The notes under the pieces: model-generated | The model's database searches: none | Told to the model about the DNA's origin: nothing | What the model saw: the letters and a program-made list of their open reading frames with translations, nothing else | Translations under genes and position numbers: made by a program | Origin: a virus | Virus record (IMG/VR): IMGVR_UViG_3300010885_042296 | Coordinates: 1 to 25,639 of that record | DNA length: 25,639 nt | Strand: one strand, 5' to 3' | Part shown: piece after piece, positions 1,585-23,742 of the stretch | How the letters are laid out: every line of letters begins with the position of its first letter | Position numbering within the stretch: position 1 is the stretch's first letter

Positions 1585-1587
1585 GGA

Positions 1588-2181: not shown

Positions 2182-2185
2182 TCTT

Positions 2186-2232: not shown

Positions 2233-2309
2233 TCAAGCGCAACGCACCGCCGCGGATGCGGAAGTGGTGCGCTATTCGATATTGAGAACCGGGTTTTTCA
2301 GCAGGCGCG

Positions 2310-3838: not shown

Positions 3839-3841
3839 GGT

Positions 3842-4441: not shown

Positions 4442-4467
4442 GGCTGTGCGCCTCCTGGGTCAGAATG

Positions 4468-4487
4468 AGGGCGGCGTCAGCCGCCCT
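4468..4487 (-). other. Hairpin with the stop codon in its loop
   Basis: AGGGCGGC (4468-4475) pairs with GCCGCCCT (4480-4487) around a 4-nt loop. On the minus strand the loop reads UGAC and contains the stop codon of the 75-aa gene (4477-4479). No U-tract follows, so it may be an mRNA-stability or partial termination element. Confidence 0.5.
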
Positions 4488-4704
4488 TCGAAGCCTTCCC
4501 GACAGGTGCAGGAACGGGATCCACGACGACCGGATCCGGGCCTGCCTTCTGCGCGGCGTAGGCCTTGATGGCTTCATCAGACCAGGCAGTGAGAGCCCAC
4601 TCGTTCGGGAACTGACCGCACGCAACAATGGCGTCGGTGCGGTACATGAACATCGGCCCCTGCTCGATGTGGTACGCGGTCGTGAACATGTCGTTGTCGG
4701 CCAT
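4477..4704 (-). CDS. Small hypothetical late protein
   Basis: This 75-aa protein has AAGGGA 6 nt before ATG 4704. The N-terminal half reads MADNDMFTTAYHIEQGPMFMYRTDAI, followed by 'NEWALTAWSDEAIKAYAAQ'. The tail is Pro/Val/Lys-rich and ends KASKGG. It has no recognisable domain. Its stop lies in the loop of a hairpin. It belongs to the head-gene operon by orientation and spacing. A small virion or assembly component is possible but not shown. Confidence 0.6.
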   Translation of the reverse strand: MADNDMFTTAYHIEQGPMFMYRTDAIVACGQFPNEWALTAWSDEAIKAYAAQKAGPDPVVVDPVPAPVGKASKGG

Positions 4705-4733
4705 GACTGGTCCCTTGTCTCAGGAGAGAACCC

Positions 4734-4749
4734 GACGCCCGAAGGCGTC
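4734..4749 (-). other. UUCG tetraloop hairpin at a gene junction
   Basis: GACGCC (4734-4739), CGAA, GGCGTC (4744-4749). In the minus-strand RNA this reads GACGCC-UUCG-GGCGUC, the extra-stable C(UUCG)G tetraloop. It overlaps the stop codon (4748-4750) of the upstream virion gene. No U-tract follows. Confidence 0.55.
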
Positions 4750-5257
4750 AGGCGAACTGCAGGTTCGGGGCGAGCCAGACCGACGCCGTGATTGACGGCG
4801 TGGTGCCGGCGGCCACCAGGTAGACCTGGAGGTAGCGGAACGTGAACGCGCCCATGAAGTTGGTCACCGGGATGACGAACTTGGTTGCCGCGCGACCGCT
4901 GCCGGTGACCGGAAGGGCGTAGGACGCCGGAACGATCGTGGCGACGAGGCGCCCCGCCGTGACCGCAGCGAAGTCACGAACTGCCAGGATCTCGATGTTT
5001 CCGCTGGTCCACCCGGAGTCGTTCGAGCCCATCAGGAAGATGCGGTACGTCTCGTCGGTGGACGAGAAGTCGATCGCCGAGATGTCGAGGACGAGGTAGC
5101 CGTCGAAGCGGCCGATGCCCACGTCGATCTGGGTCGCGGTCTGCGTGAAATAGCCGGTCGCCGTGAGCGTCTGGCTCTGGGCGAACACGAGGTTGCCGTC
5201 GTACGGGAGCGCGCGCTCCGGGAGGTTGAAGGGCAGGGTCGCATTGCTAAGGGGCAT
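4748..5257 (-). CDS. Putative capsid decoration/virion protein
   Basis: This 169-aa protein has GGAG about 8 nt before ATG 5257. It is entirely beta-type, with segments such as 'DGYLVLDISAIDFSSTDETYRIFLMGSNDSGWTS' split by polar turns and a C-terminal 'FRYLQVYLVAAGTTPSITASVWLAPNL'. It lies directly downstream of the major capsid gene, the usual place for a head decoration or stabilising protein in this phage type. There is no enzymatic motif. The role is inferred from position and composition only. Confidence 0.65.
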   Translation of the reverse strand: MPLSNATLPFNLPERALPYDGNLVFAQSQTLTATGYFTQTATQIDVGIGRFDGYLVLDISAIDFSSTDETYRIFLMGSNDSGWTSGNIEILAVRDFAAVTAGRLVATIVPASYALPVTGSGRAATKFVIPVTNFMGAFTFRYLQVYLVAAGTTPSITASVWLAPNLQFA

Positions 5258-5284
5258 GGTGCCGCTCCGATCTGTGTCTCATGG

Positions 5285-5309
5285 AGGGGGTCGGTCAGGC
5301 CGACCCCCT
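5285..5309 (-). other. Strong hairpin after the major capsid gene
   Basis: AGGGGGTCGG (5285-5294) and CCGACCCCCT (5300-5309) form a perfect 10-bp stem with a 5-nt loop in the 59-nt gap after the capsid stop. There is no U-run. It is likely a partial terminator or a 3'-end stabiliser that sets capsid mRNA level above that of downstream genes. Confidence 0.55.
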
Positions 5310-5316
5310 GGTTGCA

Positions 5317-6315
5317 TCAGGCGACGATCGTCGCGAGGGTGACGGAGGACAGGCGGGCAATCGCGCGCGGATGTTCGCGGGCGATGCCCCAGTCCCAGGA
5401 GATGCGGGTCGAGTCGAACGGAGCGCCGGGCACGTTGCCCTCGTCGATGACCGACAGCGGCGTCTGCTCGATCGCATACAGACCGCCGTCGCGCAGCGAC
5501 ATGCAGTAGATCGACGAGGTGACCGCACTGCCGCCGCCATAAGCGACTTCGGTGAAGGGCAACAGGTCGGGCGTGTCGTCGGGCTCGTAGCCGAACAGGA
5601 TCGGCAGGCCCTTGTAGGACATGACGCGCCGGCCGAAGTCGGTCTTCACGCCGTCCTGGATGTTGAAGGCCTGGTTGGTCAGCGTGTTCGACCGGGCCGC
5701 GATCTCGACGTAAGGCATGAGCGAACGCGGGAACAGCCAGTGGGTCGGCTTGTTTACCGACCACATCAGCTGGTCGAGGTTGGCGAGCGAGAGAGCCGCG
5801 CCGCCCGAAGACGTGCTGTTGGGGATCAGGTTGCCCGTCGTCAGCGAAGCCGACTGGTAGTTGGTGCAGCGGACCTGCAAGCCGTTGGGCTGGCGGGCGC
5901 CGGAGATCGAGTTGTCGCCCTTGACCAGGATCTGGCTGAAATACTGGCCCAGCGCGATGGTCTTCAGTTCCTGCTGACGGTACTTGTGCTCCGTCCCGAG
6001 GCGCGCCATCAGCGCACGGTCGGTGAAGATGTACTCGTCGATCGGGAAGGTGTCCTCTTCGCGAAGGTTGAACGTGCCGGCCGCCTGGTTGCCCGCGGCA
6101 TTGAAGGCACGGAAGCCCACGGTCGGCACCGAACCGATGTCCATGAAGGCACGCTTGCCGCCGGCATTGGCCGGCAGGAACGGGATCGCCGCCATCAGGT
6201 CAGAAGTCTTGACCATGTTCTCGACGAAGATGCGCGTGGCATCGGCCTCCTGGAACGTCTGCGCGTATTCGAGGAGGGTAATCGGGGTAGTGACGGCCGG
6301 GTTGATAGTGGGCAT
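5317..6315 (-). CDS. Major capsid protein
   Basis: This 332-aa protein has AGGAGA 9 nt before ATG 6315. The sequence fits phage major capsid proteins of the HK97-fold class: an N-terminal helical arm (TTPITLLEYAQTFQEADATRIFVENMVKTSDL, given here only as residues 9-40), a central 'FPIDEYIFTDRALMARLGTEH' block, 'ILVKGDN' around residue 150, and 'LPILFGYEPDD' in the C-terminal third. The gene follows the scaffold and precedes decoration-like genes, the canonical portal-scaffold-capsid order. No protease gene or obvious long N-terminal delta domain is present, so the separate scaffold probably does that job. Confidence 0.85.
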   Translation of the reverse strand: MPTINPAVTTPITLLEYAQTFQEADATRIFVENMVKTSDLMAAIPFLPANAGGKRAFMDIGSVPTVGFRAFNAAGNQAAGTFNLREEDTFPIDEYIFTDRALMARLGTEHKYRQQELKTIALGQYFSQILVKGDNSISGARQPNGLQVRCTNYQSASLTTGNLIPNSTSSGGAALSLANLDQLMWSVNKPTHWLFPRSLMPYVEIAARSNTLTNQAFNIQDGVKTDFGRRVMSYKGLPILFGYEPDDTPDLLPFTEVAYGGGSAVTSSIYCMSLRDGGLYAIEQTPLSVIDEGNVPGAPFDSTRISWDWGIAREHPRAIARLSSVTLATIVA

Positions 6316-6335
6316 GTGTCAGGTCTCCTGGAATG

Positions 6336-7091
6336 TTACCGAACGGCCGCTTGCTTTGCCGCATCGAGAGCCGCCATCCGCTGGCGGAACCCCATCTTGT
6401 CGAACCCGGGGATCGCCCCCTTCTGGGCCGACTCGCCGGCACGGCCACCAGCGTTGAACTGCGTCGTTGACCCGAAGGCCTGCTCGAAAGCCACGACCTG
6501 GTTGTCGGTCACCAGCATCGCGACCAGGTGCGGCGCGAGCTCCTTGCCCACGCGCGCCTCAATGGAAGCCTTCACCGCCTCGACGCGGGCCTGCCCGTTC
6601 GGGCCAAGCCGCTTGAACGCCTCGGCGCTCTGCTGCCGGACCCAGTCGGTCTCGGCCTGCTTGATCTTCGTGTCGAGAGCGACAAGGCCCTGGAACTCGG
6701 CCTGCGTCAGCTTGTTGGCATGCGCGAACTCGCGGGCCATTGCCACGCGCGGATCGTCAGGGTTCAGCTGGAACCCATCGGGCATCTTCTCGCCCTCGGG
6801 CAGCTTCAACTCGTAGGCGTCGGCCTTCTCCGGGACACCGGCCATGCGGGCCTTGGCCTGTTCGGCCTCGGTCTGCAGCGTTGCCAGATGCGCCTTCCAG
6901 TCGTCGGCCTTCAGGCCCTTCTCGGCATCCCAGTAGCTCTCGGGAAGCCAGTCGGGGCGATCACCGACCGGGCTGGTCGAACTCGGAGATGTCGGGGACG
7001 CGGCGGCGGGAGCCCCGGGAGCCTGGGGGCTCTGGCTGGGGTCTGACGACTGCAACGTCGGGGCTGTCTGTGGCTCGACCGCGGTTTCCAT
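6336..7091 (-). CDS. Capsid assembly scaffolding protein
   Basis: This 251-aa protein has a Pro/Ser/Thr/Ala-rich disordered N-terminus (residues 1-45). A conserved 'RPDWLPESYWDAEKGL' motif at about 45-60 follows, seen in many podoviral scaffolds. Long charged amphipathic helices run from about 65 to 215, and the C-terminal 'GFRQRMAALDAAKQAAVR' is basic, as expected for a capsid-docking segment. It sits immediately upstream of the capsid gene. The first about 130 nt overlap the 3' part of the small gene at 6961-7290 in another frame. Confidence 0.85.
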   Translation of the reverse strand: METAVEPQTAPTLQSSDPSQSPQAPGAPAAASPTSPSSTSPVGDRPDWLPESYWDAEKGLKADDWKAHLATLQTEAEQAKARMAGVPEKADAYELKLPEGEKMPDGFQLNPDDPRVAMAREFAHANKLTQAEFQGLVALDTKIKQAETDWVRQQSAEAFKRLGPNGQARVEAVKASIEARVGKELAPHLVAMLVTDNQVVAFEQAFGSTTQFNAGGRAGESAQKGAIPGFDKMGFRQRMAALDAAKQAAVR

Positions 7092-7290
7092 CCAATCCGT
7101 CCAACAGAGTGACGATTTCGGATGCCAGCCTCATGCGACCGACCTCTTCTCGCAACGCACCGTCCTGAAGGCCCGTTGGAATGCCTCTCATCAGCATTGC
7201 GGCGAACACCGCACGCACATGCTGGCCGTCGCGGGAATGCCCTATGCGGGCCCAGGCCTCGCGCACATCGTCTTCCATGAACGCGATCAT
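6961..7290 (-). CDS. Small gene overlapping the scaffold start
   Basis: This 109-aa frame begins at ATG 7290, which overlaps the portal stop as ATGA, a sign of translational coupling. The first about 65 residues (MEDDVREAWARIGHSRDGQHVRAVFAAMLMRG...ALREEVGRMRLASEIVTLLDG; cite as residues 5-65) look like a genuine helical protein lying outside the scaffold gene. The last about 44 residues are encoded inside the scaffold's disordered N-terminus in another frame and are Arg/Pro-rich, so they may simply reflect overlap. Function unknown. Confidence 0.55.
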   Translation of the reverse strand: MIAFMEDDVREAWARIGHSRDGQHVRAVFAAMLMRGIPTGLQDGALREEVGRMRLASEIVTLLDGLDGNRGRATDSPDVAVVRPQPEPPGSRGSRRRVPDISEFDQPGR

Positions 7291-8939
7291 TGCGGGGCAG
7301 GGCCTCCGATGGCGCCGGGCTGGATCGACGGAAACCGCGCCTGCCCTGCACCACTCAGTTGCGACAGCTGGTCGACCGCCTGGCCGATCGCCTTCGGGTC
7401 GCGCTTCACGAATACGTCCTGCACGTCGGCCAGTTCGATCATCCTGTCGATGGTCTTGCCCCCGTCGAACGCGACCTTGAACTCCTCGGGGAAGAACGAA
7501 GCCGCCAACTGCCCGACGCGCGCCGCGGTCGCGAGCTTCTGCTGGTTCTGCGCCCGCTGGGTGGGATTGTAGGGCTGCAGCGAGATCGGCGCCGCAAGGC
7601 CCGGGATCTCGATCGGCTCGATCAGGCCGCGCTTGCGGGCCAGGAAATAGAACCGCTTGAAGATCTCGCGCGGACCTTCATTCCAGAACTTCAGCCCTGG
7701 CGTCCCGATCTTGCGCTGGGCCATTGCCATCTCGTCGATCCACTGGGTAGCGGTCGGCGGGGTGTCCCCTCTTTGCTCCGGAAAGTCGTTGTAGAACATC
7801 TTCCGAATGCGGCGTTCGCGCTGCGTCTGGTCGAAATAGGCCGCGTCCAGCCGGTTCGGCTCGTACATCTTGCGAACCGCGCCCTCGGTGCCAGGGCGGA
7901 TCGGGTACCAGCCGCCAGGCTCCACGCCACCCTCGATCTGGGCAATCGAATCGTCGGGGAACGTCATCGGCGGGCGCAGGCTGAGATCCACGTTCTCCGT
8001 CTCACCCGCCGCCATGTCGTCCACATGCCGGAACTCCGGCAGCGCCTTGATGGCCGGGCCGATGCCGTAGGGCCATTCGGGGTAGCGGTTGAACGTCGGC
8101 GTGATCAGCGGACACGATCCATCGCCCGTCAGCATCTCATGATGCACGACCGTGTCGCGCACCATGATCACATGGCACCACACCACGTCGTCGTAGCGCG
8201 ACCAGTCCCGCCAGAACCCCCACCGCACGATCGTCTGCGCGTTGGGCTTCTCGCGGATTTCCGTCCTGATCGCCTCTGGCAGCTTGTCGGCCTTGCGGCC
8301 CAGCAGCGGCTCCACAAACCGGTTCTTCGTGTGGCGCACCATGAACCGATCGTCGATGTCGCCGTTCGGGCCGACATTGATCTCGAGCTCGCGCAGCGGC
8401 ACCGCGTTCACCCGCACGGGTTCATGCGGCATGCGGTCCTCGTCGATCCACACCGCAAACGTGCCGACCGCAGCATCCGGGTTCAGCGCAACACCAAGCT
8501 CCGCATAGAAGTTCGACTCGTTCATCACCCCGAAGGTCTTCTCGACGTGCTCCTTCGCACGTTCCGTGACCTCCTGCATGAAATCCTCCGGCACCCGCAC
8601 CGAGGCCTTCAGGTCGATCCAGGGCATGCCCTGCGGCATGAACGAGTTGATCAGCGTCGTCGCGAAATTCTCGCTCTCCTCGAATGCAATCGAGGTCTGC
8701 AGTTCACCCGCGAACTGGGGCTTGGACGAGGGAGCCTTGACGCTCGACGACACCACCTGCGCGCGGTGCGGAGCCGTGAAATAGTACGCCTCGCGAATGT
8801 CGGCATCGAACTTGCGCTTCTGGTCGCATGCATCGTCCAGGCGCTGCTTGGCTTCCTTGTGGATCTGGTCCGGGATCTCCCCGGTGGAACCGTCAGTAGC
8901 CAAGGATCGGCGCCTGCATCGAGCCGCCCGAGAACGCAT
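7287..8939 (-). CDS. T7-type portal (head-tail connector) protein
   Basis: The protein matches the T7 gp8 portal family (Head-tail connecting, PF12236). It has an N-terminal helix 'KEAKQRLDDACDQKRKFDADIREAYYFTAPHRA', here residues about 29-62. A 'GELQTSIAFEESENFATTLINSFMPQGMPWIDL' block, 'EVTERAKEHVEKTF' and 'FNRYPEWPYGIGPAIKALPEFRHVDDM' follow, all diagnostic of the stem and crown. The 550-aa frame from ATG 8939 is normal length. The first 12 residues are Arg/Cys-rich and read through the upstream gene, so TTG 8903 (ATDGSTGEIPDQ...) is an equally likely start. Its stop overlaps the next gene as ATGA. Confidence 0.88.
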   Translation of the reverse strand: MRSRAARCRRRSLATDGSTGEIPDQIHKEAKQRLDDACDQKRKFDADIREAYYFTAPHRAQVVSSSVKAPSSKPQFAGELQTSIAFEESENFATTLINSFMPQGMPWIDLKASVRVPEDFMQEVTERAKEHVEKTFGVMNESNFYAELGVALNPDAAVGTFAVWIDEDRMPHEPVRVNAVPLRELEINVGPNGDIDDRFMVRHTKNRFVEPLLGRKADKLPEAIRTEIREKPNAQTIVRWGFWRDWSRYDDVVWCHVIMVRDTVVHHEMLTGDGSCPLITPTFNRYPEWPYGIGPAIKALPEFRHVDDMAAGETENVDLSLRPPMTFPDDSIAQIEGGVEPGGWYPIRPGTEGAVRKMYEPNRLDAAYFDQTQRERRIRKMFYNDFPEQRGDTPPTATQWIDEMAMAQRKIGTPGLKFWNEGPREIFKRFYFLARKRGLIEPIEIPGLAAPISLQPYNPTQRAQNQQKLATAARVGQLAASFFPEEFKVAFDGGKTIDRMIELADVQDVFVKRDPKAIGQAVDQLSQLSGAGQARFPSIQPGAIGGPAPQ

Positions 8940-9090
8940 TGCGCGCGCCGAACAGCCTCACCAGCTGGTCCGTGTCAGCGCCCACCTGCTTCTGGATCTC
9001 GTCCATCTTCTGCTGCTGGGCCTGCTGCTGTTGCACGGCCAGCTGCGGATCCTGCTGGATCTGGGGAGACTTCGGCATTTTCATCGCCAT
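8893..9090 (-). CDS. Small Gln-rich protein upstream of the portal
   Basis: This 65-aa protein has GAAGAG 7 nt before ATG 9090; a TTG six codons further upstream is less likely. It reads MAMKMPKSPQIQQDPQLAVQ, then a run of Q/A residues, an amphipathic 'KMDEIQKQVGADTDQLVRLFG' helix and 'SGGSMQAPILGY'. Small Gln-rich genes in front of portals are common in these phages. The 5' half overlaps the 3' end of the previous gene in another frame by about 115 nt. Function unknown. Confidence 0.6.
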   Translation of the reverse strand: MAMKMPKSPQIQQDPQLAVQQQQAQQQKMDEIQKQVGADTDQLVRLFGARNAFSGGSMQAPILGY

Positions 9091-9508
9091 CGTCGATCTC
9101 TTCCGCAAGCACCTTGCCGCCGTTTCGCAGGCAGTCTCGCAGAAGGGCGTCCGGTCTCAACGCACCAGACCGCAGCCCGATCAACCGCGCCACCATCGGC
9201 ACGCACCACAACCCCGGCACAACCCCGCCCCCTGGCCCCGGAGGCATCGCCACGACCTTCGCGTCATCCACCCACTGGCCCAGCAGCGGGTTCACATCCG
9301 CTCCGTCAGGCACCACCCAGATCCGCGTCCGGTCCAGCGCAGGGTCGAACCCCACCCATACGCGCGAGCGCGCGCACATGCCGATCGCCGACACATGCTT
9401 GTAACGCCCGGGGATCGCCTTCACCCACCACGTCACCGCCCGAACATGGAAGCACACCAGCCACTCGACCGGGGCGTCGAACGCCGAGAAGTCAAACCTG
9501 GCGCTCAC
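8975..9508 (-). CDS. Conserved phage protein between terminase and portal
   Basis: The gene starts at GTG 9508, overlapping the TerL stop as GTGA. The 177-aa protein has a convincing conserved core: 'RFDFSAFDAPVEWLVCFHVR', 'RYKHVSAIG', 'VWVGFDPALDRTRIWVVPDG' and 'GLWCVPMVARLIGLRSGALRPDALLRDCL', cited as residues 4-145. This class of about 150-aa proteins is found next to terminase genes in many phages, often with conserved Cys residues. The last about 35 residues (Ala/Gly/Pro/Arg-rich) overlap the Gln-rich gene and are probably the less constrained part. Function unknown. Confidence 0.65.
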   Translation of the reverse strand: MSARFDFSAFDAPVEWLVCFHVRAVTWWVKAIPGRYKHVSAIGMCARSRVWVGFDPALDRTRIWVVPDGADVNPLLGQWVDDAKVVAMPPGPGGGVVPGLWCVPMVARLIGLRSGALRPDALLRDCLRNGGKVLAEEIDDGDENAEVSPDPAGSAAGRATAAGPAAEDGRDPEAGGR

Positions 9509-11106
9509 ACCAGCCGCCTCACCGACCCCCGCCGGGTCGCATGCACGATCGGCTGCACCCGCGTGCCAGGCCGGTCCTTGCCCACCAGAACCTTGCCCTC
9601 GCCCGCCCCCAGCAGCATGTACTGCAGCGCATCCGCAATATCCGAATACCGGTTCTTCTCAGGCTTGGGCTCGCCGATCTTCACGCTGTTGTCCGAGAAG
9701 TGATACCCGCCCCCCATCGCTGCCCGCAGCACCCGGCACGTCGGCGAAAGCAGGAACCGCGGCACACCGTCCCGCATCCCGTTCAGCACGAACGCCACCG
9801 CCTCAAGCCGCGTCTGGATGTGGTTCGTCGGCACCGGGGCAGGCGTCACCCGCATCCCGTTGTCAGCCCAGATCTGATACGCCGTCATCTCGTCCGACTG
9901 CGTCTTGTCCTGCCCCTTCGGGTCGCCATAGAACAGGATCGCGTCCCGCTCACGCCCCCCACCAAACCGCCGCAGATGGTCGGGGAAATGCCGCTTGAGA
10001 TGCCGCTTCACGATCGGCGCGAACACCGACGCGCCAATGTCATGCCCCGTCACTTCCGACAGCACCACCCACCGGTCGTTGATCAGCTGCCCCATCACCG
10101 CCGCCGGGCGGCGCCCGAAATCCAGCCCCACATACAGCGGCCAGGACGGGTTGGGCTCCAGCGCAACCTTCGCGACATGCGTCTCCTCGATGAACTCCTT
10201 CCACACCGGCTCGCCCAGCACAGGCGGGATGATCCGGTTCATGATCCGCGAGTCGATCCACCGCTTCGTCTTGCCCTTGATCGTCTCAAGATACAGCGGC
10301 CTCCCGTCGATCTTCGGAATCCACCGCAGGTTCTCCGCAGCCGGGTTGATCGCATAGCCCACAACCGTCCGACCGTCCGGGCCCTTCTCCTCGATCAGCC
10401 CCGGCGGCTGCACGAAATACTCCCACCCCTCCGGCCACCTATATTGCCACCGGTCCTCCTCCTTCATGCCCTCCGGGAACGGAACCTCCCCCGTCATCAG
10501 CGGCAACCAATGGTCCGACGACGGCGCGTTCAGATCCCCCAACGTCCCCGACCACGTCGCCCCGCCATCCTTGACCGGCGGGTAATACCCCGCCCGCGAC
10601 TCAGCCTCGTCAAAGAGCTCCTTCGGGGTGAACTCCATCTCGTTGAACCACCACCCCGTCACCTCCAGCGACTTCAGCTTCGACACATCGGTCGGGTCAT
10701 CCAGCGCCAGGAAAAACACCTCCGCGACCACATCCCCCTTCCGCAGCGTATGCGTCAGAGGCTTCCCCCACACAAACCGCCCAAAATCCCGCTCCGGGAA
10801 CCACTGCAGCCACGTCTTCACCGTCGTCTGCTGCAGGTCCGGGTAGGTGTTCCGCACCACCCCCCACCGCGTCCTCCGGATCCCGTCTGGCCCAGGCTGC
10901 TGCTCACACGCCCGCCGAAAAATCTCCATGCAGCACATCGACGACGTGCCCGATCGAATAGGCCCACGGATCACCCGAACCCGCGCCGAACTCTTCATGA
11001 ACCCACGCAACGTCGCGCCATCAGGCCGGTAAATCGGACGACCCTCAGCATCACGCTGAATCACCGTCCCCTCATCACGCTCCGTCGTCTTCGCCGCCAC
11101 ACCCAT
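9505..11106 (-). CDS. terL: Terminase large subunit
   Basis: This 533-aa DNA-packaging motor starts at ATG 11106, 5 nt after GGGAGGG; GTG 11109 is too close to that site. The ATPase domain has a deviant Walker A, R47-GPIRSGTSS, in which Thr replaces the usual Lys. The Walker B-like segment is VTGWWFNE (catalytic Glu about 156). The C-terminal RNase H-like nuclease shows D329 in 'VGLDFG', D395 in 'YGDPKG' and D489/D492 in 'YSDIADAL'. Length and architecture match podoviral-type TerL. It overlaps the genes on both sides by a few bases, indicating one transcript from terS onward. Confidence 0.92.
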   Translation of the reverse strand: MGVAAKTTERDEGTVIQRDAEGRPIYRPDGATLRGFMKSSARVRVIRGPIRSGTSSMCCMEIFRRACEQQPGPDGIRRTRWGVVRNTYPDLQQTTVKTWLQWFPERDFGRFVWGKPLTHTLRKGDVVAEVFFLALDDPTDVSKLKSLEVTGWWFNEMEFTPKELFDEAESRAGYYPPVKDGGATWSGTLGDLNAPSSDHWLPLMTGEVPFPEGMKEEDRWQYRWPEGWEYFVQPPGLIEEKGPDGRTVVGYAINPAAENLRWIPKIDGRPLYLETIKGKTKRWIDSRIMNRIIPPVLGEPVWKEFIEETHVAKVALEPNPSWPLYVGLDFGRRPAAVMGQLINDRWVVLSEVTGHDIGASVFAPIVKRHLKRHFPDHLRRFGGGRERDAILFYGDPKGQDKTQSDEMTAYQIWADNGMRVTPAPVPTNHIQTRLEAVAFVLNGMRDGVPRFLLSPTCRVLRAAMGGGYHFSDNSVKIGEPKPEKNRYSDIADALQYMLLGAGEGKVLVGKDRPGTRVQPIVHATRRGSVRRLV

Positions 11107-11266
11107 CACAACCCTCCCGCAGCAAATGAACCCGCCGCGCCAAAACCTCGTCCCTCACAGCCTTCGCCAACTCCATCAACCGCTCATCCGTGAAAAACCG
11201 GAACCGCTCGTCCAACCACCAATGCCCACCAGGAAACAACCGCGCATCGTCCCCAACATCAGCCAT
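11075..11266 (-). CDS. Small acidic protein upstream of terL
   Basis: The gene begins at ATG 11266, which shares bases with the nuclease stop (TGATG). An in-frame TTG at 11314 would extend it but lies inside the nuclease gene. The 63-aa product reads MADVGDDARLFPGGHWWLDERFRFFTDERL, then a helix 'ELAKAVRDEVLARRVHLLRE' and an acidic 'GCDGCGGEDDGA' tail with a CxxC pair. It overlaps the TerL start by 32 nt. The family is not recognised; the tight coupling suggests a packaging-related role. Confidence 0.5.
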   Translation of the reverse strand: MADVGDDARLFPGGHWWLDERFRFFTDERLMELAKAVRDEVLARRVHLLREGCDGCGGEDDGA

Positions 11267-14951: not shown

Positions 14952-15598
14952 AACACCCTCACCCTCTCGCTGATTTCGGCCGGACACGGCCCCCACAATC
15001 TCGTCGACCAATTGCCGCCCTCGAGCGCCATCCTGACCCGCTTCGCCTGCTCGTCCGGCGAGGCAGTGGGCGGCGGCGTTGGCTTGGGCGGATCGGTGCC
15101 GGGGAACATGGTCGGCTCGCGGCCCAAGCGCTCCGCAGCGCGGCTGCACCACGTTCGCCAGGTCGCATCCCAGTTCAGCTTCAGGCCGTCCTTGCCGGGC
15201 TTGGACACCCACCAGTCGCGGAACCGCTGTGCCTCTCGGCTAGCCTCGCCCTCTGACAGGCCTTCGCGCTTTGCCACGGCCAGATTGGCATCCGAGAGAG
15301 ACCAATCCTCCGGAAGCCTGGACCCTTTCTTTTGACCCCCTTTAGGGGGGTTTTCTTTGGGAGGAAGAGAGGGTGCAGGGAGAGAAGGAGGTTCCGCAGA
15401 ATTCCGCGGAATTTCCACAGAACGAAGTATTTTTCCCAGTTTCTTGCGCTCACGATCCGCAGCGCGACGACGCTCCGCAGCAGCATCGACAGGACGATCC
15501 GCCGGCATGGCATCGCTGACGGTCTTCAGCACGTCGAGGATGTCGTCGGATGACAGCCCCTTTTCCTGCAGCTTGTCGATGATGGAGGCGAGGTTCAT
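14948..15598 (-). CDS. DnaT-like replication protein / helicase loader candidate
   Basis: This 216-aa protein has GGAGG about 8 nt before ATG 15598, and the ATG overlaps the helicase stop (ATGA). Residues about 95-160, 'LPEDWSLSDANLAVAKREGLSEGEASREAQRFRDWWVSKPGKDGLKLNWDATWRTWC' (not quoted in full elsewhere), fit the DnaT/DnaD-like C-terminal DNA-binding domain: LPxDW, ExxRFRDWW, KxNWxATWRxW. The N-terminal part is a short helical domain followed by a basic Pro/Lys-rich linker. Coupling to dnaB suggests it recruits or loads the helicase at the origin; direct evidence is absent. Confidence 0.75.
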   Translation of the reverse strand: MNLASIIDKLQEKGLSSDDILDVLKTVSDAMPADRPVDAAAERRRAADRERKKLGKILRSVEIPRNSAEPPSLPAPSLPPKENPPKGGQKKGSRLPEDWSLSDANLAVAKREGLSEGEASREAQRFRDWWVSKPGKDGLKLNWDATWRTWCSRAAERLGREPTMFPGTDPPKPTPPPTASPDEQAKRVRMALEGGNWSTRLWGPCPAEISERVRVL

Positions 15599-17010
15599 TC
15601 CGCAGCCTCCGCAACCACGTTGGAACCGATCGCGCAGAACAGCCGCACCGTCCCGGTCTTGCCCTGCCGCAGCTTCAAGCTCTCCACGTCGAGGCGCTGC
15701 TGCGCGTTCAAAAGGCGCTCCTCCTCGACCTCCGTGCGGTCGCGCTTGCGCTCGAGGTAGTAGGCCTCCCGGAACAGGCCCAGCACGATGTCGGCGTCCT
15801 GCTCGATCGATCCCGAGTCGCGCAGATCGCCCAGGGTTGGCCGCTTGTCGTCACGGCCCTCGACGCCTCGGTTCAACTGCGACAGCGCCAGCACGGGAAC
15901 GCCAAGCTCCTTGGCAAGCACCTTGAGCCCGCCGGAGAGTTCGGAGACCTCCTGCACCCTGTTTCCTGCATAGCGGCTGGAGGGCCGCACAAGGCCCATG
16001 TGGTCGATGACGACCAGCCCGAGGGGTTGCCCCTTGCGCTCTGCGGAAACCGCCACCCTGCGCGCCCTCGCTGCGATCTGCGACAGCGTCAGCCCGGCCT
16101 GCTGCTCGATCTCGAAAGGCATCGCATCCATGCGCGAGCGCGCGCGACGAAGCCGCTCGACGGAGGCCTCAGCCATCCCGCGTGCATCCGCGATGTCGCG
16201 GTAGGTGATCACGTCCCCGCGCTCGCCGAAGACAAGGGCCGACAGCGCACGCTGGGCGAGTTCCTGGTCGACCATCTCGAGCGACACGAAATGGACCGCC
16301 CGGCCGCGCCTGGCGACGTTCAGGGCGATCTGCAGCCCGAAGGCCGTCTTGCCCATGCCGGGCCTGCCAGCAGCGACGATCAGCTGCCCGGGCTTCATCC
16401 CCTGCGTCATGCGGTCGAGCGATGGGATGCCCCACGCGACCCTGTCGACTTTCCCGCCGGCCCGCACCCGCTCCAGTTCGTCGATGACCCTGCCGGAGGC
16501 CTCTGCCAGCCCCGTGCGCGCCATCTGCCCGCCGCCGGAGGTCACCACCTCGTCGAGGGCCTCAATGGCCTTGGCAGCGACGGCATGGGGCTTGCCGACC
16601 GCCTCCTGATCAATCGACGCCAGGATGTCTCGCGCCACGTCCACGCAACGCCGCAGATCCGCGTGCCGGCGAACCTCCTTGGCGTAGGTCGTCACCAGCC
16701 CCGGGACGACGGCATTGGCGACGAGATTCGCGACGTATTCGTGCAGCGTGATGCCGCCGAGATCCCGGTCCCCAATCGCCTGGGTCACTAGCCGCGTGTC
16801 GATCGCGTTGTTCTCGTCGCGCGCCGCGATCATGCACTCCCAGATCGCGCGATGGATCGGCTCGCAGATGTCCTGCGCGTCCACGACAGCCCGGGCCCGG
16901 TCGATGAGTTCCGGCGACAGCAGCGCGGTGCCGATCAGCGCCTGCTCGGCCTGCACAGCCTGCAGCCGCAGATCCAGCGCAATGTCTTGTGGCGCCGTCA
17001 TCGCGGTCAC
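15595..17010 (-). CDS. dnaB: Replicative DNA helicase, DnaB family
   Basis: This 471-aa protein has the two-domain DnaB plan. The N-terminal domain (residues about 12-115) reads 'AEQALIGTALLSPELID' and 'IHRAIWECMIA'. The RecA-like ATPase has Walker A GRPGMGKT at 215-222, Walker B 'LGLVVIDHMGLV' near 330, and the H4 region 'ALSQLNRGVEGRDDKRPTLGDLRDSGSIEQDADIV' near 370-405. It unwinds DNA at the phage replication fork. GTG 17010 overlaps the methyltransferase stop (GTGA); ATG 17001 is the alternative and has a better spacing (11 nt) to GGAGG. Confidence 0.93.
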   Translation of the reverse strand: MTAMTAPQDIALDLRLQAVQAEQALIGTALLSPELIDRARAVVDAQDICEPIHRAIWECMIAARDENNAIDTRLVTQAIGDRDLGGITLHEYVANLVANAVVPGLVTTYAKEVRRHADLRRCVDVARDILASIDQEAVGKPHAVAAKAIEALDEVVTSGGGQMARTGLAEASGRVIDELERVRAGGKVDRVAWGIPSLDRMTQGMKPGQLIVAAGRPGMGKTAFGLQIALNVARRGRAVHFVSLEMVDQELAQRALSALVFGERGDVITYRDIADARGMAEASVERLRRARSRMDAMPFEIEQQAGLTLSQIAARARRVAVSAERKGQPLGLVVIDHMGLVRPSSRYAGNRVQEVSELSGGLKVLAKELGVPVLALSQLNRGVEGRDDKRPTLGDLRDSGSIEQDADIVLGLFREAYYLERKRDRTEVEEERLLNAQQRLDVESLKLRQGKTGTVRLFCAIGSNVVAEAAE

Positions 17011-18623: not shown

Positions 18624-18949
18624 GCGACCTCCAGCGAATCCGCCAGAACCGCAGCGTCCAGCAGCTGCACACCCGCGTCTGTCCGCACCAGCGTCAGGCC
18701 CAGCGGCTCGACCTTCTTCTTCACGCGCGACAGCAGGCTCGTCGGGTAATCGTGAGACCGCTTCATCCACTCCTTGCGCCACTCGCGCCGGAAGATGCGC
18801 TGCATCATCTCCTCGACGGTGAACGCTCGCGGGGAGAGGAACCACGCCAGTTCGAACACGGACATCTCAAAGGCATCGCTGAACTGGATGGTCACGCCAT
18901 CGCGCTCGACGCGGCCTGTCAGGGGGTTGATGCGGATCCCGGCGATCAT
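18620..18949 (-). CDS. Winged-helix DNA-binding protein
   Basis: This 109-aa protein has ATG 18949 overlapping the rusA stop (ATGA). The pattern resembles the OmpR/PhoB C-terminal winged helix without a receiver domain: beta strands 'IRINPLTGRVERDGVTIQF', helix 'SVFELAWFL', helix 'TVEEMMQRIF', recognition helix 'YPTSLLSRVKKKVEPLG' and wing 'LTLVRTDAGVQLL'. Its stop overlaps the methyltransferase GTG, so the two are translationally coupled. It may be a transcription factor of the phage or an accessory DNA-binding protein. Confidence 0.65.
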   Translation of the reverse strand: MIAGIRINPLTGRVERDGVTIQFSDAFEMSVFELAWFLSPRAFTVEEMMQRIFRREWRKEWMKRSHDYPTSLLSRVKKKVEPLGLTLVRTDAGVQLLDAAVLADSLEVA

Positions 18950-19350
18950 TGGGGCGCGATCTCAATGCGGACGCGGATCTCCTCGCGCTCGCCGTACCTT
19001 TTCGACAGCGACATCGCCGCGACCTGGCTGTCGTCCTGCCAGACCACCTGATTGCAACTGTCCTTGATGAGCTTGACGATGTTGTCGAGATCAGGCCGCG
19101 AGGTCTTCCAGCGAGCCACGTCGGCCTGCTTCTTCGACCACGATTTCGGCACCTGATAGTAGGCCTCGACGGACAACCAGATCGGGCCCTCGAGCGGCGC
19201 CCGGCCGTTCATGGCCCTCGACGCGAAGAGCTTCACCACGCCCATCGCATTGCGCTGCTTTGCCGGCGTGAACCGCGCCGTGGTCGCGCCTCCAGCCGTG
19301 CGCGCATACGGGACAGGGGTGCCAGGGACGATGAACGAGATCGCTGCCAC
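18946..19350 (-). CDS. rusA: RusA-family Holliday junction resolvase
   Basis: This 134-aa protein has GTG 19350, 7 nt after GAGG. It contains the RusA hallmarks: N-terminal 'ISFIVPGTPVPYAR', then 'SRPDLDNIVKLIKDSCN' with D87, D89 and K93, then 'VVWQDDSQV' with D106/D107. These correspond to the metal-binding aspartates known for RusA. The enzyme resolves branched recombination or replication intermediates before packaging. Length is normal. The winged-helix gene follows in a 4-nt overlap. Confidence 0.9.
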   Translation of the reverse strand: MAAISFIVPGTPVPYARTAGGATTARFTPAKQRNAMGVVKLFASRAMNGRAPLEGPIWLSVEAYYQVPKSWSKKQADVARWKTSRPDLDNIVKLIKDSCNQVVWQDDSQVAAMSLSKRYGEREEIRVRIEIAPQ

Positions 19351-19359
19351 GGCCCGACC

Positions 19360-19611
19360 TCACGACATGCCAAGCGCGGAGAGGTAGAGCTCCATGACGG
19401 CCTCCTCCTCCTTCCGCTCAGCGTGGTCCTTCGTCCGCAGCGCGATGATCTTGCGGATGATCTTGGTGTCGAACCCCGCGCCCTTGGCCTCGGCGTAGAT
19501 CTCGGATTTGTCGCTGTTGCGCTCCGCGATTTCGGCGTTCACCCGCTCCAGCCGCTCGACAAAAGCCCGCAGCTGGTCGGCCGCAATTCCGTTGTGTCCC
19601 GGCTCAGACAT
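19360..19611 (-). CDS. GapR/DUF2312-family DNA-binding protein
   Basis: This 83-aa protein reads 'NGIAADQLRAFVERLERVNAEIAERNSDKSEIYAEAKGAGFDTKIIRKIIALRTKD' at residues 7-62, the DUF2312 (GapR) core: a long coiled coil, 'KGAGFDxKIIRKII.LRK', then a helical tail. GapR in Caulobacter binds overtwisted DNA ahead of forks and helps topoisomerases. A phage copy at the head of the replication genes probably acts on replicating phage DNA. The ATG is 10 nt after GGAG. Confidence 0.88.
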   Translation of the reverse strand: MSEPGHNGIAADQLRAFVERLERVNAEIAERNSDKSEIYAEAKGAGFDTKIIRKIIALRTKDHAERKEEEAVMELYLSALGMS

Positions 19612-19716: not shown

Positions 19717-19932
19717 TCACGAACCAACCTCGAGAGATTGGATCGATAAAAAATCGTTCGGCGTAACCTGACCTTCAGTGATTTCTGCGATCTTCCGCAG
19801 CGCCTCAGGCCGTGGATGGCGAACACCGAACCGCCACTTCCGAACAGCCTCAGCCGAAAACAGCCCGCCGCTCTGGTCGGCAAACTGCTGCTCGTCCATT
19901 CCGTAGGTCTTCAGGTACTCAGCAATGGTCAT
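19717..19932 (-). CDS. cro: Cro-like repressor
   Basis: This 71-aa single-domain protein reads MTIAEYLKTYGMDEQQFADQ, then 'GLFSAEAVRKWRFGVRHPRPEALRKIAEITEGQVTPNDFL'. This is a Cro/XRE HTH with the recognition helix around 'AEAVRKWRFG' and the usual 'P.p.al..Ia..T.g.v...df' end. ATG 19932 lies only about 8 nt from the -10 box at 19940-19945, so the message is probably leaderless; the in-frame ATG at 19968 would lie inside the promoter. It is divergent from cI, and a terminator follows. Confidence 0.82.
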   Translation of the reverse strand: MTIAEYLKTYGMDEQQFADQSGGLFSAEAVRKWRFGVRHPRPEALRKIAEITEGQVTPNDFLSIQSLEVGS

Positions 19933-19939
19933 GTCTCGC

Positions 19940-19968
19940 ACTGTGCCCACGATGGGCACATTCGTCAA
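19940..19968 (-). promoter_or_regulatory. Leftward early (cro) promoter
   Basis: On the minus strand: TTGACG (-35, 19968-19963), a 17-nt spacer and CACAGT (-10, 19945-19940, keeping the conserved A2 and T6). The 19-bp CI operator fills the spacer and part of the -10. The predicted start is near 19933, next to the cro ATG. Confidence 0.65.
19942..19960. promoter_or_regulatory. CI operator 1
   Basis: TGTGCCC-ACGAT-GGGCACA: perfect 7-bp inverted arms with a 5-nt centre, 19 bp in total. It lies in the cro promoter spacer and is the same sequence type as the sites at 20000, 20639 and 20663. Confidence 0.8.
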
Positions 19969-19982
19969 GCGCCATCAGCCCA

Positions 19983-19996
19983 GTCTGTTCACAGAC
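19983..19996. promoter_or_regulatory. 14-bp palindrome in the cI-cro gap
   Basis: GTCTGT-TC-ACAGAC is a perfect palindrome lying midway between two CI operators. It differs from them in sequence. It could be a binding site for Cro or a host regulator. Confidence 0.35.
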
Positions 19997-19999
19997 TTT

Positions 20000-20018
20000 C
20001 GTGCCCGCGTGGGGCACA
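20000..20018. promoter_or_regulatory. CI operator 2
   Basis: CGTGCCC-GCGTG-GGGCACA matches the operator with one mismatch. It ends 8 nt before the cI ATG (20027), so occupancy would affect cI expression itself. Confidence 0.7.
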
Positions 20019-20026
20019 GGGTGACG

Positions 20027-20590
20027 ATGGGCAACAATCTTCGAGCGTTCAGGAAAGCGCGGGGCTGGTCACAGGAGCGGGCCGGTGAGGCGATGGGCAC
20101 CAGCCGCGACACCTACGTCAAACTTGAAAACGGCAGTCGGAAGCTCCATTCCGAATGGATCGCGAAAGCTGCCGCCGCATTTGAGGTGGACCCAGGCCAG
20201 ATCGTCAGCGACCGCGACCAAGTGCCGTTGATCGGCTATGTGGCCGCTGGGGCAGAGGCGCACTATTACGACGGCGATCATTTTGCAGATCAACTCGAGG
20301 CGCCCGAAGGCACGACCGAATCCACAGTTGCGGTTCAAATCCGGGGGGGTTCACTTGGAACATTTTTCGACGGCTGGATCATTTTTTACGACGACGTGCG
20401 TCGGCCGGTGACCGATGACTTGATCGGGCCACTTTGCATCGTTGGCCTTCCAGACGGCCGGGTTCTGGTCAAGAAAATCAAGCCCAGCCGCAATCGTGGG
20501 CTCTATCACCTCTACGGTCAGTTCGGCGATCCCATCCTGGACACCCCGGTGGAATGGGCCGCGCGCGTCAAGAGCATGGTGCCAAGGTGA
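20027..20590 (+). CDS. cI: CI-like prophage repressor (HTH plus S24-type domain)
   Basis: This 187-aa protein starts at ATG 20027, with AGGGTG about 5 nt upstream; the frame is open further 5' but through the operators. The N-terminal XRE HTH (residues 4-58) reads 'LRAFRKARGWSQERAGEAMGTSRDTYVKLENGSRKL', cited as 5-40. The C-terminal LexA/S24-like domain has a potential cleavage pair Ala74-Gly75 in 'GYVAAGAEA', a Ser109 nucleophile in 'RGGSLG' and Lys149 in 'DGRVLVKK'. This is the pattern of a self-cleaving, SOS-inducible repressor. It maintains lysogeny by binding the four TGTGCCC-N5-GGGCACA sites. Confidence 0.9.
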   Translation: MGNNLRAFRKARGWSQERAGEAMGTSRDTYVKLENGSRKLHSEWIAKAAAAFEVDPGQIVSDRDQVPLIGYVAAGAEAHYYDGDHFADQLEAPEGTTESTVAVQIRGGSLGTFFDGWIIFYDDVRRPVTDDLIGPLCIVGLPDGRVLVKKIKPSRNRGLYHLYGQFGDPILDTPVEWAARVKSMVPR

Positions 20591-20638
20591 CGAACTTGCG
20601 CGCACGCACATGTGAAGGCTACACACGGGCCTGAGGAT

Positions 20639-20657
20639 TGTGCCCAATATGGGCTTG
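20639..20657. promoter_or_regulatory. CI operator 3 (degenerate)
   Basis: TGTGCCC-AATAT-GGGCTTG: the left arm is intact and the right arm diverges in its last three bases because they form the -35 box of the rightward promoter. Spaced 24 bp from operator 4, allowing cooperative binding. Confidence 0.6.
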
Positions 20658-20683
20658 ACTGATGTGCCCGCATTGGGCACAGT
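20655..20683 (+). promoter_or_regulatory. Rightward early promoter
   Basis: TTGACT (-35, 20655-20660), a 17-nt spacer and CACAGT (-10, 20678-20683). The spacer carries CI operator 4. The layout is a mirror of the cro promoter, including the identical CACAGT. The start near 20690 leaves a short leader before ATG 20713. Confidence 0.65.
20663..20681. promoter_or_regulatory. CI operator 4
   Basis: TGTGCCC-GCATT-GGGCACA, perfect arms, positioned between the -35 and -10 boxes of the rightward early promoter. Confidence 0.8.
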
Positions 20684-20712: not shown

Positions 20713-21015
20713 ATGTTTCACCCTCCCTCACCACCGACTGACCGCGTCTCAGCGTTCTTCACACGCATCGACGCGCAGCTTGCCGCCACGCCCGACATCG
20801 GGATGCGCGGCGTGTTCCTCAACGGCCAGATCAGCCGATGGGAACGTCTGAACGAACTGCTGCTGAGGTGGGCGTCCGGTGAACTCTCCGGGCCAAACCC
20901 GGTCGGCAATGGCGCAACCGTGTGGGACGTGACCCAGACGCTTGGCGGGCTGTACCAGCGCCTGACAGACGTGCAGCAGGACGCGCGGAACCAGATCAAG
21001 GAGGCCGCGCTGTGA
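20713..21015 (+). CDS. First gene of the rightward early operon, unknown function
   Basis: This 100-aa protein has GGAG 6 nt before ATG 20713. It is helical and soluble: 'TDRVSAFFTRIDAQLAATPDIGMRG', 'ISRWERLNELLLRWASGEL', and 'TVWDVTQTLGGLYQRLTDVQQDARNQIKEAAL' as a C-terminal amphipathic helix. The family is not recognised. As the first gene transcribed after derepression it could be regulatory; an antiterminator is conceivable, but no Arg-rich motif is present. It overlaps the next gene as GTGA. Confidence 0.7.
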   Translation: MFHPPSPPTDRVSAFFTRIDAQLAATPDIGMRGVFLNGQISRWERLNELLLRWASGELSGPNPVGNGATVWDVTQTLGGLYQRLTDVQQDARNQIKEAAL

Positions 21016-21116: not shown

Positions 21117-21255
21117 GGCCGTGTTCCTGATCATGCTCACGCCGGTCTTCGCCGTCGCGGCCCTGTTCGCTGCGTGGCTCATCGCAGGTGTTGCGATTGA
21201 TCCCGAGGTCGAGGACGACCCGCACCAGGATCCAACCCATTGGGGACGTTCATGA
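21109..21255 (+). CDS. Tiny single-span membrane protein
   Basis: GTG 21109 begins a 48-aa frame: a hydrophobic segment 'VFLIMLTPVFAVAALFAAWLIAGVAI' (residues 5-30), then an acidic tail 'DPEVEDDPHQDPTHWGRS'. It overlaps the previous gene by 8 nt and ends in a 4-nt ATGA overlap with the exonuclease gene. Paired tiny membrane proteins in an early operon might act on the host envelope or exclude other phages (speculative). Confidence 0.55.
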   Translation: MVEAVFLIMLTPVFAVAALFAAWLIAGVAIDPEVEDDPHQDPTHWGRS

Positions 21256-22220
21256 CCCTTCAGACAGGTATCCATTTCGGCGTCCTTGAGGACGTGTACC
21301 ACGCGGACCCGGCGCCGGAGCCGTCGCTGTCGTCGTCTGTGGCAAAGATCCTCCTTGAGCAGTCGCCGCGCCACGCTTGGCATGCTCACCCGCGCCTCGG
21401 TGGCGGTCACGGGGACCGCGACAACACCCGTGCGATGGAGGTCGGCACCGTCGTCCACAAGCTGCTGCTGGGCTGCGGCGCTGAGGTCGTGCCGATTGAT
21501 GCGGAAGACTACCGCAGCAAGGCCGCGAAAGAGGCGCGTGACGCGGCCTATGCCGCCGCCAAGCAGCCAATCCTGCGCGCCGACATGAAGACCGCAGCCG
21601 ACACCGCAGCCGCCGTCAGCGACCAGCTGGACAAGGTTGACGACTGCGCTGGGTTCGGGGTCGACGGCGCGGCCGAGGTCGTCGGGATCTGGCGGGACGA
21701 GACGGGCCCGTATGGCCGGCTGATGGTCGATTGGCTGGAGGATCGCGGTGACTCGGCGATTTTGTGGGACATCAAGACATCGAGTGTGTCGGTCGCACCG
21801 CATGCCATTGCCCAGCGGATCGTATCCATGGGCTACGACGTGAGCGCAGCGCACTACGAGCGCGGCATCCTGGCGCTGCGGCCTGAACTCGCCGGGAAGT
21901 TGACGTTCCGGTGGATCTTCGTCGAAACCTCCGCGCCTCACCTGATTACGATCGCGGAACTCGACGCGGCCGGTCTCGCCATCGGGCGCAAGAAGGCTGC
22001 GGCGGCGTTCGGCCTCTGGGCCCGTTGCCTGCGCGACAACGTCTGGCCGGGCTACCCAAATCACATCATCCGTCCGGATTATCCCAACTGGGCCGAGAAC
22101 CAGTGGCTGGCGCGCGAAACGGCCGATGAGGATCTGCTGTCACTCGGCGCTGATCCGTTCTTGATGCTGTCGCCGTGGGTTCCTCCGCGGGTGCCGAAGA
22201 CCATTGTGGAGGCTGTGTGA
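21252..22220 (+). CDS. PD-(D/E)XK exonuclease, RecE/exo VIII-like
   Basis: This 322-aa protein starts at ATG 21252 (ATGA overlap). It resembles phage exodeoxyribonuclease VIII C-terminal-type proteins (DUF3799/YqaJ-like): 'LSSSVAKILLEQSPRHAWHAHP' near 26-47, 'AMEVGTVVHKLLLG' with His69, then the catalytic pair D160 in 'GRLMVDWLED' and D173-I-K175 in 'ILWDIKTS', and 'GYDVSAAHYERGI' as the helix following the core. It would resect double-strand ends for single-strand annealing or strand invasion, working with the RecA-fold ATPase two genes downstream. Confidence 0.85.
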   Translation: MTLQTGIHFGVLEDVYHADPAPEPSLSSSVAKILLEQSPRHAWHAHPRLGGGHGDRDNTRAMEVGTVVHKLLLGCGAEVVPIDAEDYRSKAAKEARDAAYAAAKQPILRADMKTAADTAAAVSDQLDKVDDCAGFGVDGAAEVVGIWRDETGPYGRLMVDWLEDRGDSAILWDIKTSSVSVAPHAIAQRIVSMGYDVSAAHYERGILALRPELAGKLTFRWIFVETSAPHLITIAELDAAGLAIGRKKAAAAFGLWARCLRDNVWPGYPNHIIRPDYPNWAENQWLARETADEDLLSLGADPFLMLSPWVPPRVPKTIVEAV

Positions 22221-22756
22221 TGGCACCAGGGTGCTGGGGGCGCAAACGGCTTCCTTTGCCGTCGCAGGAAGACCTGCGCGCCATGTTTGATTATGACCCG
22301 GATGTAGGCACCCTTCGATGGAAAGCCCGCTCTGGGATGAGACCACAATGGCTTCGGCGCTGGCCCGGAGCGTTGGCTGGAACCAGAGACTCTGCGGGAT
22401 ACGTCGAAGTCCGTATCGCGCGGCAATCTTACCTCGCGCATCGTCTGATTTGGAAATGGATGTTTGATGAAGAGCCATCGGACATTGACCATGTAGACCT
22501 TGACCGGTCGAACAATCGGCTTCGGAATTTGCGGCGCTGCGCGCACGTTGAGAACACTCGGAACAGCCCAGGGTGGAGAAAAAAGACCTTACCGAAAGGC
22601 GTATTTTACAGACCCTGCAGTGGCAGGTTCCGCGCGATCATTGGTGTTAATCGGAAGAACAAATCTCTTGGAACGTTTGACACAGTAGAGGAAGCGCAAG
22701 CGGCCTATAACTCTGCCGCCCGTGCATACTTCGGCAGTTTTGCGAGGGTATCATGA
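22220..22756 (+). CDS. HNH-AP2 homing endonuclease
   Basis: ATG 22220 shares a base with the exonuclease stop (TGATG). The 178-aa protein has an HNH_3-type nuclease: 'GTLRWKARSG', 'YVEVRIARQSYLAHRLIW' (His74), 'IDHVDLDRSNNRLRNLR' (D90-H91, N98/N99). An AP2-like DNA-binding domain at about 126-175 follows: 'KGVFYRP', 'FRAIIGV', 'LGTFDTVEEAQAAYNSAARAYFGSFA'. Such enzymes are selfish elements that spread between phages. It sits exactly between two functionally linked recombination genes, and the ATPase gene overlaps its end by 4 nt. Confidence 0.9.
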   Translation: MAPGCWGRKRLPLPSQEDLRAMFDYDPDVGTLRWKARSGMRPQWLRRWPGALAGTRDSAGYVEVRIARQSYLAHRLIWKWMFDEEPSDIDHVDLDRSNNRLRNLRRCAHVENTRNSPGWRKKTLPKGVFYRPCSGRFRAIIGVNRKNKSLGTFDTVEEAQAAYNSAARAYFGSFARVS

Positions 22757-23742
22757 ATTTCTCATTCAAACCGGCAGCAACCTACAATGAGCGATCTGGC
22801 TTGTTCATTTCTTTGACGGGTGGGACCAACAGTGGGAAGTCATTCAGTTCGCTTCGCCTTGCCCGCGGAATAGCAGGGCCAAAAGGCACGATTGCCGTCA
22901 TTGACACCGAGGGCGGCCGAATGCTGCACCTCAAGCGCGACTTTGACTTTGATATTTCGCTCATGGATCCGCCGTTCAGGCCGGATCGTTTTGCCGACGC
23001 CGCGAGATCGGCAGAGGACGCTGGCTATGCATGTCTTGTGATCGATTCGTTTAGCATGGAATGGGTCGGGCTTGGTGGCGTTCTTGACTGGCAAGCCGCC
23101 GAGCTTGAGCGCATGTCCGGAGGCGATTTTCGCAAAGCCGAGCGCATGAAGATGGCCTCATGGATCAAGCCAAAACAGGCGCACAAAAGCATGGTCTACA
23201 GCCTGCTTCAACGCCGGATCCCGATCATCTTTTCGATCCGCGGCGAGGAAACGGTAAAGCCAGGGGAGAGCTCCGGCGATAAGCCGACCAAGATCTTCAA
23301 ATCAGTCTGCAACTCTCACTTTCCCTATGAGGTCACCTTGTCGTTTCGCCTGGACATGGAGCGCAAAGGGATCATCGACCTGTCAGACCAGCGGTCCTTC
23401 AAGATGGAAGGGTCGCACCGGGAGATGTTCAAGCACGGCGAGCAGATCAGCGAGCGCCATGGCGAGATGCTCGCCGCATGGGCTCGAGGCGAGGCACCGA
23501 AGCCCGATGCGGATCAGCAGGAGTACATACTGCACGACGCGATGCAGCCCGCCGCCAACGCCGCGCACCTCCTTCACCTGGCGCAGGAGGGCCAGGATGC
23601 CGCCGACCGTGGCACCGCGGTGCTGAAGGCATTCTGGAGCCGTCTCACGAAGGACCAACGGCATGCACTGGCGGGGAACATCGACGCATGGAAGCTGCAA
23701 GCCCGCGAAATTGATGAACTGCCGCAGGAGGTCGAGCAATGA
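22753..23742 (+). CDS. RecA-fold ATPase (Sak4/AAA_24-like) recombination protein
   Basis: This 329-aa protein starts at ATG 22753 (ATGA overlap with the HNH gene). It has Walker A GGTNSGKS (23-30), 'TIAVIDTEGGRMLHL' (46-60), and Walker B 'YACLVIDSFSMEW' (D98), typical of phage single-domain RecA-like ATPases of the Sak4 type. 'RIPIIFSIRGEE' resembles the following sensor strand. Residues beyond about 250 form an extra helical domain. Together with the exonuclease it would form the phage's recombination system. The 5' third is AT-richer than its neighbours. Confidence 0.8.
   Translation: MNFSFKPAATYNERSGLFISLTGGTNSGKSFSSLRLARGIAGPKGTIAVIDTEGGRMLHLKRDFDFDISLMDPPFRPDRFADAARSAEDAGYACLVIDSFSMEWVGLGGVLDWQAAELERMSGGDFRKAERMKMASWIKPKQAHKSMVYSLLQRRIPIIFSIRGEETVKPGESSGDKPTKIFKSVCNSHFPYEVTLSFRLDMERKGIIDLSDQRSFKMEGSHREMFKHGEQISERHGEMLAAWARGEAPKPDADQQEYILHDAMQPAANAAHLLHLAQEGQDAADRGTAVLKAFWSRLTKDQRHALAGNIDAWKLQAREIDELPQEVEQ

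Follow-up and report, generated by a model that had tools for sequence, protein, structure and literature searches.

A putative lambda-like immunity region with TGTGCCC operators in a virus record and in related phages and genomes

Genes and candidate operators of the locus

The window analysed here is a linear virus record of 25.6 kb (25,639 nucleotides). The gene under study (20027..20590, plus strand) encodes a 187-aa CI-like repressor, in which a helix-turn-helix (HTH) domain (residues 1-63) is followed by a LexA/S24-like C-terminal domain. To its left, on the minus strand, lies an operon that runs through a 71-aa Cro-like HTH protein (19720..19932; HTH_3 and a phrog_35 repressor match), a GapR-like DNA-binding protein (19360..19611; Pfam GapR_DNA-bd, E 9e-28), a RusA resolvase (18946..19350), a DnaB-like replicative helicase (15595..17010) and a primosomal protein. 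To its right, on the plus strand, a second operon begins with a 100-aa protein that matches no known family (20713..21015) and continues with an exonuclease VIII-like recombination nuclease (21252..22220; phrog_412, E 9e-56), an HNH endonuclease with an AP2 domain, and an AAA-type ATPase of the recombination module (22753..23742; phrog_1366 and a weak AAA_24 match). The HNH-AP2 gene (22217-22753), situated between the exonuclease and AAA genes, is perhaps a homing-type insertion; Microcystis phage Mwe-JY08 has an annotated HNH gene at the equivalent place. Positions 1-11109 carry terminase, head-tail adaptor, major head and tail genes on the minus strand (that is, on the strand of the cro operon), and the gene families suggest that the phage is temperate and podovirus-like.

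The two control regions flanking the repressor gene contain a 19-bp palindrome, TGTGCCC-N5-GGGCACA, against which all mismatches given below were counted. A preliminary description of this DNA had reported four copies, starting at 19942, 20000, 20639 and 20663, and these were recovered with 0, 1, 3 and 0 mismatches, respectively. On the left, O1 (19942..19960, TGTGCCCACGATGGGCACA) is located inside the predicted leftward early promoter, and O3 (20000..20018, CGTGCCCGCGTGGGGCACA) stops 8 nt short of the cI start codon. On the right, O4 (20639..20657, TGTGCCCAATATGGGCTTG) has all of its mismatches within its right arm, which also forms the start of a -35 box, and O5 (20663..20681, TGTGCCCGCATTGGGCACA) is located inside the rightward early promoter.

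A fifth site, overlooked in that description, occurs between the two left operators at 19975..19993 (TCAGCCCAGTCTGTTCACA; 4 mismatches), 33 bp from O1 and 25 bp from O3. It was grouped with the same family by a de novo palindrome search, and relatives carry a site at this conserved middle position; hence, weak as it is on sequence alone, it is probably the middle left operator, O2. With the cI start placed at the ATG, the centre of O2 falls at about -43; lambda OR2 is at about -42 of PRM. Lying directly ahead of the cI start, O3 could serve as an autoregulation site.

Repressor, predicted early promoters and the lambda plan

The N-terminus of the repressor corresponds to Pfam HTH_31/HTH_3, with a phrog_4 repressor match, and an hhalign comparison with lambda CI (E 2e-8) covers both the HTH and the C-terminal domain. 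The Pfam family Peptidase_S24 yields no match for the window repressor; it does match a relative, P0014, above the cut-off. When an AlphaFold2 model (mean pLDDT 88) was compared with the PDB by Foldseek, the best matches were lambda repressor and LexA, with the C-terminal domain by itself agreeing better than the whole chains. By these comparisons together, the repressor has an N-terminal HTH joined to the S24-like fold of LexA/CI repressors. An A74-G75 cleavage-site motif and an S109/K149 dyad are aligned with those of lambda CI and are invariant in 16 related sequences, so that the residues for self-cleavage are kept and cleavage itself is predicted.

The leftward early promoter, equivalent to PR (19940..19968, minus strand), consists of a -35 box TTGACG (19968-19963), a 17-nt spacer and a -10 box CACAGT (19945-19940); the rightward one, equivalent to PL (20655..20683, plus strand), consists of TTGACT (20655-20660), 17 nt and CACAGT (20678-20683). 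Both predicted promoters therefore have the layout originally described for them, namely TTGAC(G/T), an operator within the 17-nt spacer, and CACAGT. The -10 box is the weakest part of this proposal, because CACAGT is a poor match to TATAAT (3 of 6 bases) and scanning with a sigma-70 consensus yielded no promoter. In most relatives TTGAC is found 3-5 nt outside O1. The cro start codon lies about 8 nt past the -10 box in the window, and at the same place and distance in relatives; the gap between O1 and this ATG is 8-13 nt in most relatives having a Cro-like gene. With the ATG this close to O1 and the -10 box, transcription starts would fall at or beside it, and the cro mRNA, judging from that distance, probably has no leader or almost none.

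At lambda PL and PR, the GTTG of GTTGAC forms the end of the outer operator, the inner operator occupies the 17-nt spacer with its last GATA beginning the -10 box, and the operator starts are 24 bp apart. The right control region of the window follows this same plan in other letters (GGGCTTGAC, 17 nt, CACAGT, 24 bp), its inner operator likewise sharing four bases with the -10 box. As in lambda, cI is between two control regions, with Cro-like and replication genes on one side and recombination genes on the other, and there are three operators on the Cro side (in the window, two clear and one weak). Features of such a switch that are present thus include shared operators flanking cI and a divergent Cro-like HTH gene. 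The arrangement that the preliminary description had presented as unusual, with the repressor gene between the control regions and operators inside matching promoters, is therefore the lambda plan and no oddity.

The window departs from lambda in several respects. Its operator is 19 bp long with TGTGCCC half-sites, instead of 17 bp; two operators were found on the PL side (as in other relatives), where lambda is annotated with three on each side, a number treated here as particular to lambda and not as a requirement for this type of switch; and on the Cro side O1 and O2 are separated by 33 bp instead of 24. Moreover, unlike lambda, it has a poor -10 box, a probably leaderless cro, no rex genes and a mirror orientation. 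Among relatives the O1-O2 spacing is either 32-35 or 23-24 bp, values about one helical turn apart. As far as can be predicted, then, the putative operators overlap the early promoters in PL/PR geometry, the left region differing in its O1-O2 spacing.

This geometry bears on the copy at 20639, which had been called half-degenerate. Its right-arm mismatches are real, but they do not indicate decay: since the same fusion to the -35 box occurs both in relatives and in lambda PL/PR, this is a dual-use site. A fused outer site is found in ten relatives (L124, L129, L130, L133, L134, L147, L121, L125, L126 and L127) at a spacing of 23-25 bp, including some with TTCCCC operators; two of these read GGGCTTG without the AC. 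Relatives with short repressors have spacings of 31-44 bp and no fusion.

Relatives, recognition helices and stray copies

Relatives were gathered by an exact-pattern scan and by alignment searches of viral contigs and bacterial genomes. Among the matches listed from the scan, a homologous HTH adjoins the same sites at three loci (L095, L080 and L010). The whole repressor, used as a single query, matched nothing in the viral contigs, whereas an alignment query did find relatives. Among relatives, too, cI is found between two control regions. When the DNA upstream of cI was searched de novo for repeated palindromes, with no motif supplied, the TGTGCCC family emerged for most repressors with a GT[TS][RK][ND] recognition helix, either in the same register or shifted by one base.

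Between positions -160 and +20, the 18 repressors of this class are accompanied by 41 sites with up to three mismatches, versus 0.26 in shuffles, where the class was drawn after the helices had been seen and leaves out L254 and L257 (GTTKN helix, AATACCC operator). The check proposed at the outset, i.e., a search of related prophages for the same 19-mer beside homologous repressors, accordingly succeeds for 17 of the 18, each of which has at least two operator sites; the remaining repressor, L200 (GTTRN), has one. No TGTGCCC-type site accompanies 18 of the 24 repressors of other classes, and five of the six exceptions fall in the closely similar TGTACCC class or have a mixed operator.

Other recognition helices go with other operators: GTTRS or GTSRS with TGTACCC, and G[VILM]S[RK][SG] mostly with [AG]TTCCCC. 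At base 4 of the O1 half-site, G occurs in 29 of 30 cases in which the repressor has T25 together with N or D at residue 28, and A occurs in all 8 with T25 and S28; L254 and L257, found after this count was made, oppose it. In the alignment with lambda CI, residue 28 falls on Ser45 (numbered without the first Met), which contacts bases in operator DNA. A tree from which the recognition helix was left out requires at least four changes at residue 28. Independent pairs relating it to base 4 number two on starred branches and four on the best tree; the sign test gives p 0.5. In the two starred-branch pairs base 4 follows in the same direction in 1.8 on average, so that the direction agrees in too few pairs for significance. 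Exceptions apart, the operator varies in step with the recognition helix.

Three cases illustrate the range of such combinations. Mesorhizobium phage vB_MseS-P1 (PP232116) has a LexA-like repressor that is 49-50% identical to that of the window over its full length, and it likewise has two flanking control regions and a fused outer site before TTGAC; its helix, however, is GVSRS and its operator [AG]TTCCCC. This phage is otherwise RcGTA-like (PMC11409702). Prophages of Methylobacterium tarhaniae and M. variabile (L133/L149 and L134/L150) have the window operator on both left and right, a Cro-like gene, the same fused site with 24 bp between it and the inner site, and an HTH 54-56% identical to that of the window; their repressors differ in being 254 aa long, with a more extensive S24 C-terminal domain. 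Mwe-JY08 (PP395640, L271) is the nearest sequenced phage by its terminase and AAA protein (63% identical). Its repressor, too, is between two control regions, yet is only 25% identical, and the repeated sequence there is ACGAAACGTACAGT; repressor and operators thus seem, from this comparison, to have been exchanged together as an immunity module.

A single HTH class with its operator is combined with three kinds of C-terminal region: a long S24 domain (repressors of 254 aa in L133/L134), a short S24-like domain (187-aa repressor of the window) and a short tail without an S24 match (repressors of 116-120 aa in L135/L137).

In five bacterial loci (L141-L144 and L199) a repressor with TGTGCCC operators faces, to the left of O1 and in the place of cro, a short ORF similar to the C-terminal portion of GcrA; the Pfam GcrA match was obtained in all four such loci scanned. 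A Cro-like gene was not found in these five, nor were right-hand sites at the four loci searched for them (L141-L144), which speaks against a lambda-like switch. Possibly these are domesticated repressors controlling a cell-cycle-type regulator. They bear on the idea that the palindromes serve chiefly the Cro-like protein (19720-19932) as operators and that the CI-like protein acts elsewhere, which would accord with the Cro-like gene being the first gene under O1 and with the sharing of sites by lambda CI and Cro. Because the operators of those five relatives precede a repressor whose neighbour is the GcrA-like ORF only, and because operator class tracks the recognition helix of CI, this idea is very unlikely to be correct, and binding of the sites by the CI-like repressor is the preferred reading.

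Less probable still is that the phage borrowed sites that serve a host regulator. The exact 19-mer does occur in many unrelated viral contigs, in some within coding sequence: at least 119 stretches contain it. Among the matches listed, just 2 of the 119 have two further sites at most 130 bp away, both of which are repressor loci, and most exact copies in viral contigs look like chance. The preliminary description had regarded copies throughout a host genome as evidence against its reading; in the genomes of two relatives, copies with at most one mismatch are confined to the repressor locus (2 of 2 in the 7.5-Mb genome of L142 and 3 of 3 in the 6.7-Mb genome of M. tarhaniae). L146 has a repressor of the TTCCCC class; three such copies occur in its genome, all away from the repressor locus, and these resemble isolated chance copies.

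Five pairs 57 bp apart, among the matches listed, resemble O1-O3; these were rejected, as none adjoins a homologous repressor. In three of them (L035, L052 and L083) the near-exact 19-mers are inside one coding gene and apparently constitute an internal protein repeat, not operators. At L107 there are two exact copies, at 3836 and 4296, the second of which adjoins what by eye is an HTH-regulator-like gene; this is perhaps an unrelated repressor with the same operator.

As for chance within the window itself, the number of matches with up to three mismatches is unremarkable (5 versus 2.4 +/- 1.4 expected). In 200 dinucleotide shuffles of the window, by contrast, exact copies never occurred, copies with at most one mismatch averaged 0.025, and no shuffle had more than three sites per 745 bp, compared with four in the window; the near-perfect copies and their clustering are far from chance. 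Hence it is scarcely credible that these are chance or repeat-like palindromes without function, as the near-chance count might suggest, given that they are clustered and conserved in position beside homologues.

The proposed switch and its meaning

Very probably, then, the locus is a temperate phage's immunity region that functions in the manner of lambda's. This interpretation draws upon the sites, their clustering and conservation, helix-operator covariation and geometry; from there we infer binding, promoter activity, cooperative contact between neighbouring dimers, the part played by the Cro-like protein, autoregulation and self-cleavage. Dimers of the CI-like repressor would bind the 19-bp palindromes in both control regions flanking cI. 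At O1, O2 and O3 the repressor would shut the leftward promoter and, with it, the Cro-like, GapR-like and replication genes, and occupancy of O3 would permit autoregulation of cI; occupancy of O4 and O5 would close the rightward promoter and so silence the recombination genes. Upon DNA damage, self-cleavage of the repressor would be stimulated and both operons opened, and the Cro-like protein would compete with the repressor for the same sites. As far as sequence goes, the interpretation given in the preliminary description is supported.

Its description of the operator as new holds for the sequence, as far as the sources can be searched: a nucleotide search of the control region against phages gave no match, and a literature search found no report of a TGTGCCC-N5-GGGCACA operator. 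Relative to those sources, operator and repressor are both new; the mechanism is already known. What this adds is an operator specificity, along with its repressor, for phages of a bacterial group with few mapped switches, and it allows prediction of such operators on the basis of the repressor recognition helix.

That the lambda layout recurs with unrelated operator letters suggests either that the promoter and cooperative dimers constrain it or that it is very old, and natural repressor/operator pairs exist for testing such a constraint. More generally, the case is about evenly balanced for a repressor-operator family, mostly from phages and genomes of Hyphomicrobiales, that has kept the 'grammar' of lambda (i.e., 24-bp spacing, an outer operator fused to TTGAC and an inner operator sharing the -10 box) and in which the operator varies with a few helix residues. 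If so, this family, which would include the bacterial-contig copies facing a GcrA-like gene, is a natural series for reading how the specificity of phage repressors changes.
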